Source of the DNA: Propionivibrio dicarboxylicus
GTDB lineage: Bacteria > Pseudomonadota > Gammaproteobacteria > Burkholderiales > Rhodocyclaceae
NCBI RefSeq assembly: GCF_900099695.1
Contig: NZ_FNCY01000009.1
Location: 17,350-81,349 of the forward strand
Length of the DNA: 64,000 nt
Direction: 5' to 3'
Notes under the pieces: model-generated
The model's input: the letters and a program-made list of their open reading frames with translations, nothing else
Database searches by the model: none
Told to the model about the DNA's origin: nothing
Shown here: piece after piece, positions 4,248-62,863 of the stretch
Layout: every line of letters starts with the position of its first letter
How positions within the stretch are numbered: position 1 is the stretch's first letter
Program-made: the position numbers and the translations under genes

Positions 4248-5632
4248 CCTTTGACCAATTTCCCGGGGACTGCACCGATCGAGCCGGCCCCCATCGTAAT
4301 CACCACATCGCCATCACGCGCCACGTCGAGAATCACCGCCGGCATATCGGCGATCTCCTCGACGAACACCGGCTCGACCCTACCTGCGACACGCAATGCG
4401 CGTGCCAGGGAACGCCCATCGGCGGCAACAATCGGCGCTTCACCCGCGGCATAGACGTTGCCTAAGACAAGTGCATCGACGCTGCTCAGCACGGCGACGA
4501 AATCCTCGAAACAATCGCGAGTCCGCGTATAGCGATGCGGCTGAAATGCCAACAGCAAGCGACGGCCGGGAAAGGCGCCGCGTGCTGCTGCGATCGTCGC
4601 CCGCATCTCGGCCGGGTGATGACCATAATCGTCGATCAGCGTGAACTGACCGCCCGACGGCAACGCGATCTCGCCATAGCGCTGGAAGCGCCGCCCGACC
4701 CCCTTGAACTCCGCCAGCGCCTTCATGATCGCGGCATCGCTGACACCGACTTCGGTCGCCACGGCGATTGCCGCCAACGCGTTGAGCACGTTGTGCATGC
4801 CCGGCAGATTGAGCGTCACCGGAAAACGGCTGATGCTGCCATTGACGCGCACGCAATCGAATTTCATCTGGCCGTCCTGCGCGACGATGTTTTCCGCTCG
4901 CACGTTGGCCGACTCGGCGAGACCGTAGCTGACGATCTGCTTCGATACCTGCGGCATGATTTCGCGCACGTTCGGGTCGTCGGCGCACAATACGGCAACG
5001 CCATAAAACGGGAGGCGCTGCAGGAAATCGACGAACGTCTGCTTGAGCCGACCGAAGTCGTGCCCGTAGGTTTCCATGTGATCGGCATCGATGTTGGTAA
5101 CGATCGAGATCACCGGCGACAGATACAGGAAGGACGCATCCGACTCGTCCGCCTCGGCCACCAGAAAATCGCCCGATCCGAGCCGAGCATTGGCGCCGGC
5201 GGCATTCAGCCGCCCACCAATGACAAATGTCGGGTCCATGCCGCCTTCGGCCAGAATCGACGCCACCAGACTCGTCGTCGTCGTCTTGCCGTGAGTACCC
5301 GCCACCGCGATGCCCTGCTTGAGCCGCATCAATTCGGCCAGCATCTGCGCACGCGGCACCACCGGCACCTTGCGCGCGCGCGCGCCCTGAACTTCCGGGT
5401 TGTCCTCGCGCACTGCCGTCGACACCACGACGGCATCGGCATCGATCACGTTCTCGGCCGCATGACCGACGGCGATGCGAATACCGAGCCCGGCGAGACG
5501 GCGCGTCGTCGGATTATCAGCAAGATCGGAGCCGCTCACGCCGAAACCGAGATTGCATAGCACCTCGGCAATCCCGCTCATGCCGGAGCCACCGATGCCG
5601 ACGAAATGGATGTTCTTGACTTTGTGTTTCAT
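4244..5632 (-). CDS. murC: UDP-N-acetylmuramate--L-alanine ligase MurC
   Basis: Cytoplasmic Mur ligase that adds L-alanine to UDP-MurNAc, the first step of stem-peptide assembly. The 462-residue protein begins with the nucleotide-sugar motif [12 protein letters not shown] (about 12-23) and carries the ATP loop GTHGKTTTT (about 112-120). The central-domain motif ADESDASF and the C-terminal DDYGHHPAE follow. It overlaps murG by 4 bases upstream and ddl by 4 downstream, so all three are likely translationally coupled. Confidence 0.98.
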
Positions 5633-6690
5633 TTCACCAGTTCCTCACATGCGCTCGCCACCGCCTCGACCGCTTCCGGTTTGGCCAGGGACCGCGCTTT
5701 CTCTGCCATCTGCAGCAGCTGCCCGCGCGTGTAGTTGCGGAGCAGACTGACCGATTCCGGCGTCAATTCCGATTGCGGCAACAACACCGCGCCGCCAACC
5801 CGCGCCAGGAATTTGGCATTGGCCGTCTGATGGTCATCGACGGCATGCGGGAAGGGAACGAGAATGCTGGCAACGCCCGCTGCCGCCAATTCGGCGACCG
5901 TCAGCGCGCCGGCACGGCACAGCACCAGGTCCGCCCAGGCATATGCTCCTGCCATGTCTTCGATAAAGGCAACGCAATCGGCATGGACACCGGCAGCCGC
6001 ATAATTCGCTTTCAACTCATCGATGTGGCGCGCACCGGCCTGATGGACGACGAGCGGCCGCTCGGATTCCGCGATCAGGCTCAGCCCCTGCGGCACGATC
6101 TCGTTGATCGCTGCCGCACCGAGGCTGCCGCCAAGCACGAGCAGGCGAAGCTGCGCCGGGCGCCCGGCGAAACGCTCGGCCGGCGGCGGCAGCGCGGCGA
6201 TGTCGGCGCGCACCGGATTGCCGACCCACTCGCCTTGGCGCAAGGCATCGGGAAAACCGCAGACAACACGGCTCGCAACCTTGGCGAGAACGCGGTTGGC
6301 AAGCCCAGCGATCGAATTCTGCTCATGCACAACTAGCGGACAACCGGCCAATACCGCCATCATGCCGCCCGGAAAACTGATGTAGCCGCCCATGCCGAGA
6401 ACCACGTCGGGTCGCACGCGCCGAATCTGCTTCCATGCCTGGAGAAAGCCCGACAGCAGGTTGAGCGGCAGCAGCAGCTTGCGCACCAACCCCTTGCCGC
6501 GCAGCGCACCGAACTTGAGCCAGGCCATTTCGTAACCACGCGAAGGCACGAGCTTGCCTTCCATGGCATCGGGATTACCCATCCAGACGACATGCCAGCC
6601 GCGATCTCGCAGCGCATCGGCAACGGCAAGCCCGGGGAACACGTGACCACCGGTACCACCCGCCATGACAAGGAGCGTCTTCTTTTTCAT
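5629..6690 (-). CDS. murG: Lipid II synthase MurG
   Basis: Peripheral membrane GT28 glycosyltransferase that transfers GlcNAc from UDP-GlcNAc to lipid I, giving lipid II. The 353-residue protein has the N-terminal GGTGGHVFP loop (11-19), the HEQNSIAG lipid I-binding motif, a GGSLGA loop opening the second Rossmann domain, and the DHQTANA sugar-nucleotide contact. The ATG overlaps, as ATGA, the stop of a 36-codon ORF lying between it and ftsW. A GAGGGG ribosome site lies inside that small ORF. Confidence 0.98.
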
Positions 6691-6797
6691 AGCTTCGCCC
6701 CTCGCATAAGCTGCCGATTTTGGCTACGGCATAACACCGGCTTCGCCGGGTTAGCCTGCGCCGAAATCGTCAATTGATAAGCCGCGTGTTCGCTCAT
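6687..6797 (-). CDS. 36-codon small ORF bridging ftsW and murG, repeating the FtsW tail
   Basis: Reading the minus strand from 6797 gives an open frame of 36 codons. Its ATG overlaps the ftsW stop as ATGA, and its TGA overlaps the murG ATG as ATGA. GGAG lies about 8 bases before its start, inside the ftsW end. Its last ten residues, [10 protein letters not shown], are identical to the last ten of FtsW, with mostly synonymous base differences. The rest starts [11 protein letters not shown], has no motif I recognise and no membrane segment. It may be a true micropeptide, or a duplicated coupling unit (Shine-Dalgarno plus overlap) that only passes ribosomes from ftsW to murG. The geometry is directly visible; whether the peptide is made or functional is inference. 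Confidence 0.5.
6732..6753. other. Stem-loop inside the ftsW-murG spacer
   Basis: TAAC-A-CCGGC, loop TTC, GCCGG-GTTA forms a compact stem of about nine pairs with one bulged A. It lies in the middle of the small ORF between the two FtsW-tail copies. No U-run follows, so it looks like an RNA processing or pausing structure rather than a terminator. It may also be the remnant of a small palindromic insertion. Confidence 0.4.
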
Positions 6798-7954
6798 AAC
6801 TTCGCTCCACGCATCAATTGCCGATTTTCCCAATCCACGCGCAGCAGGATGGCGAGCGCGACGCAGTTGGCAAGAATGCCTGATCCGCCGAAACTCATCA
6901 GCGGCAAGGTCAAGCCCTTGGTCGGCAACAGCCCCATGTTGACGCCCATGTTGATGAACCCCTGAACGCCGATCCAGATGCCGACCCCTTGCGCGACCAG
7001 CGCCGGATACAATCGATCGAGCGCGACAGCCTGGCGACCGATGATGAAAGCGCGCTGAACGAGCAGTCCGAACAGGGCGATGACAACGACCACACCGGCG
7101 AAACCAAGTTCTTCGGCAATCACCGCCAACAGGAAATCGGTATGCGCTTCGGGTAAGTAGAAGAGCTTTTCGACGCTGGCGCCGAGACCGACGCCCAGCA
7201 ATTCGCCGCGGCCGAACGCGATCAGGGCGTGCGACAGTTGATAACCTCGCCCGAAGGCATCGGACCAGGGATCCATGAAGCCGAAGATACGGTCGCGTCG
7301 ATACGGCGAGACGATGATCAGCACCGTAAACGCCACCATCAACAAGACGATCAGGACGGCGAACAGACGCGCCCGCATGCCGCCGAGGAACAGGATGCCA
7401 ATGGCAATCGAGATGATGACGACGAAGGCGCCGAAGTCCGGCTCCTTGAGCAGCAGCACGCCAACAATGAACATCGCCGCGGCCATCGGCAGGAACGCCT
7501 TCTTGAGATCATGCATGTGCGGCATCTTGCGCACCGTGTAGTCGGCGGCATAGAGGACGGCAAACAGCTTCATCAACTCGGACGGCTGCAGGTTGACAAG
7601 GCCGAGCGACAACCAGCGCCGGGCGCCATTGACGTCGCGCCCGATACCCGGCACCAACACCAGCGCCAGCAGGACGAATCCGGCGACGAACAACCACGGC
7701 GCCAATTTTTCCCAGACTTTCAACGGAACCTGGAAAGCCATCCCGGCACCGATCAGCCCGATGGCCAGGAAAAAGCCATGACGAACGAGAAAATAGGCGG
7801 GATGATTCCCGGTATGCCGTCCCGCCTCGGCGATCGCGATCGAAGCCGAATACACCATCACCATGCCCAGCAAAAGCAGAAACAGCCCGCTCCAGAGCAG
7901 GGCCAGATCGACTTCGGCGGGTTCGCGGCGCGGCGTATCGAAGGACGGAACCAT
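6794..7954 (-). CDS. ftsW: Lipid II polymerase FtsW (SEDS family)
   Basis: Polytopic inner-membrane SEDS glycosyltransferase that polymerises lipid II into septal glycan together with FtsI. The 386-residue protein has about ten hydrophobic segments and the family signatures [17 protein letters not shown] and MSFGGSG near the C-terminus. Its ATG shares one base with the murD stop. The last codons ([10 protein letters not shown]) also contain a GGAG ribosome site for the next frame and recur about 107 bases downstream, just before murG. Gene order murD-ftsW-murG is the usual one. Confidence 0.98.
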
Positions 7955-62068: not shown

Positions 62069-62863
62069 TCACTTCGGACGCGAACCCGTCGGGAACGGCC
62101 AAGCGCCGGTGGGATTCAGTGCCGATTTGATTCCCGGCGTCGCCGCCGTCGAGGGCTGAGCCGAAGCCGGCGCAGCTGCTGCAGGCGCCGGAGCGGGTAC
62201 CGCTGCCTTCTTGACGGGAGCCTTCTTCACCTCGGGTTTCGCCGCAGGCTTGGCTGCTTCCTTTTTCACCGCGACTTTTTTTGCAGCCGGTTTCGCGGCA
62301 GGTTTGGCCTCAACCTTTTTCGCCGCCGGCTTGGCGGCAGCCTTCTTCACCGCCGGTTTGGCGGCAACCTTCTTCACCGCCGGCTTGGCGGCAGGTTTGG
62401 CGGCGGGCTTGGCAACCGCTTTCTTCGCCACGACCTTCTTGGCGACGGCCTTCTTCACCGCTGGCTTGGCGGCCGGCTTGGCAGCAACCTTTTTGGCAAC
62501 CGCCTTCTTCACCGCCGGCTTGGCAGCAGGCTTGGCGACGGCTTTCTTCGCCACGGCTTTCTTGGCGACGGCCTTCTTCACTGCCGGTTTGGCGGCAGGC
62601 TTGGCTACCGCCTTCTTGGCAACCGCCTTCTTCACCGCCGGCTTGGCGGCAGACTTGGCGACGGCTTTCTTCGCCACGACCTTTTTCACCGCAGGCTTGG
62701 CGGCCGGCTTGGCCACGACCTTCTTCGCGACGGCCTTCTTCACCGCCGGCTTCGCTACCTTGACAGCGGCTTTTTTCGCCACAGGCTTGGCGGCGGCTTT
62801 CACTGCAGTTTTCTTGGCAGCAGGCTTCGCAGCCGCCGCCGGTTTCTTAGCACTTGTTGCCAT
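62069..62863 (-). CDS. Histone H1-like Lys/Ala-rich nucleoid protein
   Basis: A 264-residue, very basic low-complexity protein built from imperfect repeats of the type KPAAKPAVKKAVAKK (about 20-215). A Pro/Ala hinge follows, then a distinct non-repetitive tail with LNPTGAWPFPTGSRPK. Such proteins resemble eukaryotic H1 tails and bacterial AlgP or Hc-like proteins and are thought to bind DNA non-specifically. Nucleic-acid binding is inferred from composition. A near-perfect ribosome site AAGGAGGT lies a few bases before the ATG, suggesting high expression. Confidence 0.85.
   Translation of the reverse strand: MATSAKKPAAAAKPAAKKTAVKAAAKPVAKKAAVKVAKPAVKKAVAKKVVAKPAAKPAVKKVVAKKAVAKSAAKPAVKKAVAKKAVAKPAAKPAVKKAVAKKAVAKKAVAKPAAKPAVKKAVAKKVAAKPAAKPAVKKAVAKKVVAKKAVAKPAAKPAAKPAVKKVAAKPAVKKAAAKPAAKKVEAKPAAKPAAKKVAVKKEAAKPAAKPEVKKAPVKKAAVPAPAPAAAAPASAQPSTAATPGIKSALNPTGAWPFPTGSRPK
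62270..62800 (-). repeat. Imperfect tandem repeats inside the histone-like gene
   Basis: The coding DNA is made of degenerate units of about 45-60 bases. Each encodes a Lys-Pro-Ala-Ala block followed by Val-Lys-Lys-Ala-Val-Ala-Lys-Lys. Copies differ at synonymous positions and in length. Such tracts commonly expand and contract by slippage or recombination, so repeat number is expected to vary between strains. Confidence 0.75.

Follow-up and report, generated by a model that had tools for sequence, protein, structure and literature searches.

Why should the end of ftsW, together with its ribosome site and its ATGA, be written twice in a row, and why should the DNA between the two copies be open to translation from one end to the other? 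The question is raised by the window, i.e. the whole stretch of 64,000 nucleotides of Propionivibrio dicarboxylicus DNA analysed here, where the overlap of ftsW and murG on the minus strand carries an insert of 107 nt in which the FtsW tail, the ribosome site and the ATGA recur. We argue, with a probability that we put at about 0.78, that a mobile element has inserted here and has been tolerated because the micro-ORF that it creates would relay ribosomes from FtsW to murG. The features on which the argument turns are the following.

6794..7954, minus strand: ftsW, 386 codons, with ATGA at its end; family confirmed by Pfam
6794..6828, minus strand: first direct repeat (DR1), comprising T1, the FtsW tail, GGAG and ATGA
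6687..6797, minus strand: putative relay micro-ORF, 36 codons plus stop
6764..6778, minus strand: T', an inverted copy of T1; its predicted pairing with T1 encloses the relay start
6722..6763, minus strand: element core, 42 nt; covariance-model match at 6719-6766, 44.1 bits
6687..6721, minus strand: second direct repeat (DR2), comprising T2, the second copy of the FtsW tail, GAGGGG and the murG ATGA
5629..6690, minus strand: murG, with its start within the final ATGA; family confirmed by Pfam

The junction in the window

The preliminary description of this DNA had reported a 36-codon frame that fills the gap between the two genes, and so it does: its ATG at 6797 lies in the ftsW ATGA and overlaps the ftsW stop, and its TGA at 6687 lies in the ATGA of murG and overlaps the murG ATG. 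The two ribosome sites that had been pointed out are likewise in place, GGAG at 6808-6805 and GAGGGG at 6703-6698, each ahead of one start. The two 36-base copies of the FtsW tail (6829-6794 and 6722-6687), described as differing at about seven mostly synonymous positions, differ at exactly seven (a repeat finder gives 83% over 35 bases), of which six are synonymous by eye and the seventh, at the first base, changes Glu to Gln. DR1 has a G just before it and AAAA at its start, as in the insertion motif G|AMAA derived below. T' matches T1 at 14 of 15 positions by eye (13 of 14 when computed), and in the predicted RNA fold the stem formed by T1 and T' would enclose the ribosome site and the start of the micro-ORF. 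The core in the window is shorter than the other cores at ftsW-murG, the second hairpin being absent by eye. Far from this junction, the window also holds dense tandem repeats of 27, 54 and 123 nt (62283-62752, Tandem Repeats Finder), which on the minus strand resemble, by eye, the tail of a lysine/alanine-rich repeat protein.

FtsW was detected in 25 of the 28 genomes of the genus. When the junction was aligned across these close relatives, as the preliminary description had proposed, 24 loci held both genes, of which 7 had related inserts (L002, L003, L006, L007, L011, L018 and L019, the last with three tandem units 116 bp apart), 15 the plain overlap and 2 a short unrelated spacer (L014 and L016); the covariance model described below had no match in the 17 loci without insert. 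The preliminary description had also considered that the duplicated segment might be an assembly artefact, which is unlikely since related inserts occupy the same place in six other genomes of the genus, one of which (G027) is a four-contig assembly. The two element-free spacers measure 54 nt (L016, genome G003) and 24 nt (L014, genome G025); that of L016 is spanned by a GTG-started ORF, which completes a stop-to-start chain at a chance rate of 0.57.

On a tree of FtsW and MurG (23 rows, from 25 loci), the presence of the element requires 4 changes (bootstrap 3-5), which may be gains, losses or transfers. By eye, T1 of the window's own genome matches T2 of G027, and its T2 resembles T1 of G027. 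The swap would be accounted for if an ancestor had held two units and each lineage had lost a different one; multi-unit states do exist, as arrays such as L019 attest. T2 of L006 equals, again by eye, the tail of the element-free L008, which suggests that T1, T' and the core arrived together.

A dispersed repeat with a covarying core

The window spacer belongs to a family of repeats whose core has three helices that covary. In an alignment of 45 cores, a stem of GGC-GMA-GGC with GCC-GNA-GCC carries two hairpins, 92.0% of the cells are paired, and double-change cells number 93 versus 36.4 after shuffling (covariation 0.226 versus 0.079; 0 of 500 shuffles as high). The GC content of the core is 67.5%. 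A possible resemblance to integron attC, with its R/L box architecture, lies in TAAC..GTTA.

The covariance model built on this fold finds a single copy in the window's own genome and matches in 10 of the 28 genomes of the genus, among which a particular form of the core, with up to 3 mismatches allowed, occurs in 5 genomes and at ftsW-murG only. A looser core pattern is present in 26 of 395 genomes of the family, its reversed control in 0; in a species-level genome collection the core pattern occurs in at least 118 stretches, most of them betaproteobacterial by title. Under the stricter filters that we applied to the surveys of order and class, 34 of the 120 genomes from the order had matches to the covariance model, the richest of them with 42 copies. 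In a class sample of 115 genomes the own genome alone had a match and the 114 others none; kinship is known for 21 of these 115, and 19 of the 21 lie outside the order. Genome G046 carries 28 copies and a MAG labelled Bordetella (L120/G789) has 16 matches. Tandem units are spaced at 74 bp in G430, at 116 bp in L019, and over a range of 75 to 162 bp.

Several simpler identities for the insert were considered and rejected. A lone tandem duplication is at odds with a core that is dispersed. A known RNA family is contradicted by Rfam, which gave no match in window positions 6500-7000 at E<=1 and, on seven loci, 5 tRNAs above threshold and 6 sub-threshold matches to other families, none of them on a core by position. 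An origin from phages or plasmids was discarded on the grounds of no match in either (one query each) and 0 stretches in viral contigs; the window spacer itself has one weak 27-nt plasmid match.

Target site, direct repeats and inverted arm

The host sequence from the insertion site through the ATGA flanks the element on both sides as a direct repeat, so that the FtsW tail stays intact and the ribosome site and ATGA of murG are kept. In a first count over the family, for which 108 of 145 copies were usable, direct repeats were clear in 51 of the 108 and inverted arms in 46. The tail of the upstream gene is clearly duplicated in 46 of 117 copies, versus 11 of 117 in the downstream control. Clear duplication is confined to roughly half of the copies, which counts against the model proposed below. 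At 28 distinct clear sites the insertion point follows G in 20 cases and C in 8 (4 of the latter inside arrays by eye), and is succeeded by A in 28, by A in 16 or C in 12, by A in 26 and by A in 24, which yields the motif G|AMAA. Among 24 hand-picked copies, 16 have direct repeats of 24-63 bp (for example 43/43, 53/53 and 44/45 identical); the remaining eight comprise four with repeats of 1-12 bp, two in which whole array units (89 and 95) are repeated and two without a core end. Checked against the MITE class, the direct repeats are long, variable and confined to part of the copies, and the pairing of the ends is partly that of the host-derived T'. By eye, the repeats tend to end just beyond the stop of the host gene (L120, L037), and those of antisense elements (L079, L158, L214) reach past its start; in either orientation one whole copy of the gene thus survives.

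T' is an inverted copy of the first bases of the repeat and usually lies ahead of the core. Over 33 units at ftsW-murG, it shares on average 10.82 of 14 positions with its own T1, 7.64 with its own T2 and 8.04 with T1 sequences from other junctions. The stem of T1 and T' covaries (73 double-change cells versus 29.0 after shuffling; 0 of 500 shuffles as high), and pairing of T' with T2 shows no covariation (30 double-change cells versus 28.8). At a further 22 sites with unlike T1 and T2, T' is closer to T1 in 17 and to T2 in 1, with 4 ties. Because T' tracks T1 away from ftsW as well, it looks like a property of the element, such as templated copying of a hairpin, and not like a consequence of translation. 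Where the two repeats are identical T' is short, by eye about 8-9 nt in L062 and L120. We also note that a CAACACGCC..GGCTTGTTG hairpin before the core is common to several copies at different genes.

A co-directed ORF ends at most 130 nt upstream in 82 of 110 copies, compared with an opposite ORF as near downstream in 41 of 110; these counts refer to ORFs, not annotated genes, and to 110 of 148 copies, 38 lying near edges. NCBIfam identifies as hosts argF, nrdA, proB, metK, smpB, trpE, glmS, rpoA, a GAPDH-family gene, mraY, murA, gpsA, argB, cysH, acs, ccmE and dnaJ; a LivH-type permease lies below the cut-off of its model and the reductase of L111 below those of all its models. Copies also adjoin genes for tRNA-Leu, -Phe and -Ser, and at L043, L044, L067 and elsewhere the element sits, by eye, in a partial second copy of tRNA-Leu(CAA), tRNA-Phe(GAA) or tRNA-Ser(TGA), with the intact tRNA adjoining. 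At L195:57-3065 (G009:C70) two copies lie in frame within an RND-type permease gene whose frame is open over 1003 codons, the NCBIfam match falling in two stretches.

How such an element might move can be pictured as follows. The folded core would join at G|AMAA, its 3' end would fold back and copy the first ~8 nt of the target to give T', and joining of the second strand would leave a variable direct repeat of tens of bases. Since a repeat of this kind could rebuild an interrupted gene end, the element could occupy the last codons of essential genes, as well as tRNA genes. The short T' beside identical repeats and the nearness of T' to T1 in 17 of the 22 other sites would fit. That the family represents a class of mobile DNA which moves through a single-stranded, self-primed hairpin and has been domesticated as a relay at coupled junctions is, taken as a whole, a tentative proposal that we would not bet on. 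As to candidate enzymes, a REP/RAYT Y1 transposase showed no association with the element, PF01797 being found in 6 of 9 copy-rich and 6 of 9 copy-free genomes, all hand-picked, and absent from the copy-rich G046, G009 and G789. Nor did the RVT_1 reverse transcriptase expected of a retroelement: over the same kind of hand-picked sample (18 genomes), PF00078 is found in 4/9 copy-rich versus 3/9 copy-free genomes and is absent from G046, G448, G791, G789 and G009.

Micro-ORF chains at ftsW-murG and at other gene ends

Among 44 distinct ftsW-murG junctions, 13 are empty and 30 filled, and one (L134, filled) was dropped for N. The element is present in 28 of the 30 filled junctions, and in all 28 of these a complete chain of micro-ORFs leads from the FtsW stop to a murG start, against 8.1 expected from dinucleotide shuffles. 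To our mind this is what is new here. Stops or frameshifts in relatives, which the preliminary description had named as the outcome that would speak against its reading, occur in none of the 28. The chain test accepts ATG, GTG or TTG within -9 to +7 nt of a stop and is thus permissive, being satisfied by chance at about 0.3 per junction on average; the two filled junctions in which the element pattern was not flagged, L016 and L255, also have complete chains, at shuffled rates of 0.57 and 0.70. The segments before the core fall into 16 clusters (62% identity cut, 28 junctions), and with the most permissive member taken from each, the log10 product of the chance rates is -9.18.

At ftsW-murG all 25 scored copies have a core length divisible by three (42, 48, 51, 54, 57 or 66 nt; 22 distinct sequences), versus 41 of 102 elsewhere, where the three phases account for 41, 32 and 29 copies (Fisher p 5.6e-9). 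A frame that would serve as relay runs through the core in every one of 24 cases at ftsW, but of 46 other gene ends only 19 have one (Fisher p 2.6e-7); both p-values overstate independence, as the junctions share ancestry. The core-length and cluster counts cover 127 of 148 copies, and of the 21 dropped the three at ftsW-murG are also in phase (54, 48 and 54, the last by hand count); neither core-length count includes cores that decay has put outside the strict pattern, as in L119.

Away from ftsW, the relay frame is found at nrdA (5/6), argF (3/5), LivH-type genes (3/3), trpE (2/2), unnamed genes (2/6), mraY, smpB and glmS (1/2 each) and ccmE (1/1), and at none of the copies at metK (0/4), proB, dnaJ and the reductase (0/2 each) or gapA, gpsA, argB, rpoA, murA, cysH and acs (0/1 each). 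L077 was scored as lacking a relay, since a start 9 nt beyond the stop falls outside the accepted interval; its frame is open by eye. Several of the genes with a relay frame presumably have a co-directed operon partner; for some, e.g. argF, we know of no coupled partner.

The chains at ftsW-murG are not all built alike. In L119 and in the first unit of L145 the core is read in another frame and is still open, in L127 and L212 two units are fused in frame into one ORF, in L019 three overlapping micro-ORFs are chained, and the chain of L211 depends on a TTG start. In L129, an unrelated stretch between the element and murG constitutes a second chained micro-ORF of 54 codons. Searches of the relay peptides against Pfam (6) and NCBIfam (5) gave no match. 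Since the usual frame of the core is open in 73 of 102 copies elsewhere, openness of the core is in itself weak evidence, and the case for a relay, as far as the sequences can make it, would rest on the phase of the core length together with the segment before the core.

Known repeats and known coupling

The closest published relative that we could find is the BRE of Hot et al. 2011 (PMC3110155), a Betaproteobacteria repeat of ~90 bp for which the section on it suggests no function, and which is described there as present in several copies per genome and in variable tandem arrays, usually intergenic and in some cases within coding sequence. Units measure 75-91 bp, a B. pertussis copy lies at 3605317-3605401, and the GC content averages 69.0% in Bordetella. 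Distribution and behaviour as given in that section fit the family studied here, which is likewise multi-copy in Betaproteobacteria (the order counts given above), forms tandem units of variable number (L019, with three at 116 bp; G430, at 74 bp; and others), mostly follows the end of a co-directed ORF (82/110) and lies in frame in L195, and is GC-rich. The window repeat family is therefore probably the BRE, a match made by description and not by sequence. The unit of 107 nt in the window exceeds 75-91 bp, the host tail being counted in our unit. Neither a target motif nor a duplicated gene tail is described in the BRE section of PMC3110155, and that section does not mention an inverted arm, a structured core or a coding role.

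Other systems share single traits with the element, as judged from their descriptions. The RPEs are short palindromic repeats that lie in frame in protein genes and in RNA genes (PMC2229807, PMC10969869), as the element does in L195, but they belong to Rickettsia and the parts of these sources that deal with them mention neither duplication of a host tail nor intergenic relay ORFs. YPAL/RU-2 of Yersinia is, in the account of PMC2229807, not A+T-rich, has internal inverted repeats and makes target duplications of variable size; these span 3-26 bp, versus the 24-63 bp seen in 16 of our 24 hand-picked copies, and the taxon is another. Termination-reinitiation coupling at ATGA, where stop-start overlaps pass ribosomes on, is treated in PMC6728339 and PMC10666635 in the passages that concern us; in the present junctions the micro-ORF of a mobile element has turned a single overlap into a series of at least two. 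In the open-licence PMC literature, only Hot et al. 2011 has such a repeat among the matches listed, and none of these points, by title or abstract, to a relay ORF at ftsW-murG or to the core fold, the target motif, the tail duplication or the self-tracking arm. The matches listed for six exact core strings look unrelated, as far as titles and the beginnings of abstracts tell.

Discussion

The model that we propose begins with a mobile palindromic repeat of Betaproteobacteria, which would have entered ftsW at a G|AMAA site some 35 nt short of the end of the gene. Left untranslated, the resulting gap of 107 nt would be expected to break stop-start coupling. In six gene pairs of E. coli and Haloferax, a distance of ~20 nt is reported to nearly abolish termination-reinitiation coupling (PMC10666635, in the results that bear on distance), and an insert of ~100 nt should thus uncouple murG unless it is translated. 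Only those insertions would then last in which the element, from a start at the FtsW stop, can be translated without interruption as far as the next start; a ribosome that has finished FtsW would take up the micro-ORF by reinitiation and, at its end, pass to murG in the same way. That the element-filled junctions are biased in frame is an observed fact; insertion as the event, reinitiation and selection are what we infer. The ribosome-passing half of the micropeptide reading offered in the preliminary description thereby gains strong support, and its other half, a peptide with a function of its own, is not supported.

That second half deserves to be set beside the other readings. A selected micropeptide that tunes the FtsW/MurG ratio or binds FtsW would account for a C-terminus that repeats residues of the FtsW tail, but this tail is simply duplicated host sequence, the N-terminal parts differ among the 16 pre-core clusters, two units use another frame, and the arrays L127 and L212 fuse units into one ORF. 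With no match in addition among the 6 peptides compared with Pfam and the 5 with NCBIfam, a functional peptide was rejected; we hold it to be scarcely credible, and ascribe to the peptide no supported role. A plain recombination join of two diverged ftsW-murG junctions, with no mobile element involved, had been the other suggestion of the preliminary description. The swapped T1 and T2 alleles of the own genome and G027 and the identity of L006 T2 with the tail of L008 (by eye) speak in its favour, and recombination may contribute, but the join leaves out the core, a dispersed repeat found beside argF, nrdA, proB, metK, tRNA genes and others. Being contradicted by that, the bare join was rejected, and we discount it almost entirely.

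It could also be that the insertion is neutral and its frame open because the junctions have a common ancestry and the element contains few stops. The junctions are indeed not independent, and the core is open in its usual frame at most sites elsewhere (73/102), yet neutrality would hardly account for a core-length phase kept in 25 of 25 copies across six lengths, or for chains in all 16 pre-core clusters when other gene ends have the relay frame in only 19 of 46. The chain, gene-end and core-length results hence disfavour neutral insertion, which we judge very improbable. The main rival to the relay is that the open frame serves transcription, in that ribosomes on the insert would keep Rho from ending the dcw transcript and murG would start independently from its GAGGGG. 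Any translated insert would satisfy this demand, the same open frames are predicted, and T2 does have GAGGGG ahead of the murG start. Protection from Rho, however, needs no micro-ORF that ends near the murG start, yet 28 of 28 chains end there, and in L129 a second chained ORF is made even by additional sequence that lies beyond the element. We consider this explanation unlikely, but it is the one to be taken seriously.

Taken together, we favour a relay of ribosomes from FtsW to murG through a tolerated mobile element. If this is true, evolution has repeatedly run a coupling experiment in which the inserts that survive in an essential overlap are those that keep a ribosome-passing frame, and the need for coupling between ftsW and murG would become directly testable. 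A repeat that was published without a function would gain an anatomy from which its mobility can be studied, with a core fold, a target motif, long direct repeats and a self-copied arm. Natural insertions of this kind would, moreover, amount to a genome-wide readout of the gene pairs that need coupling.
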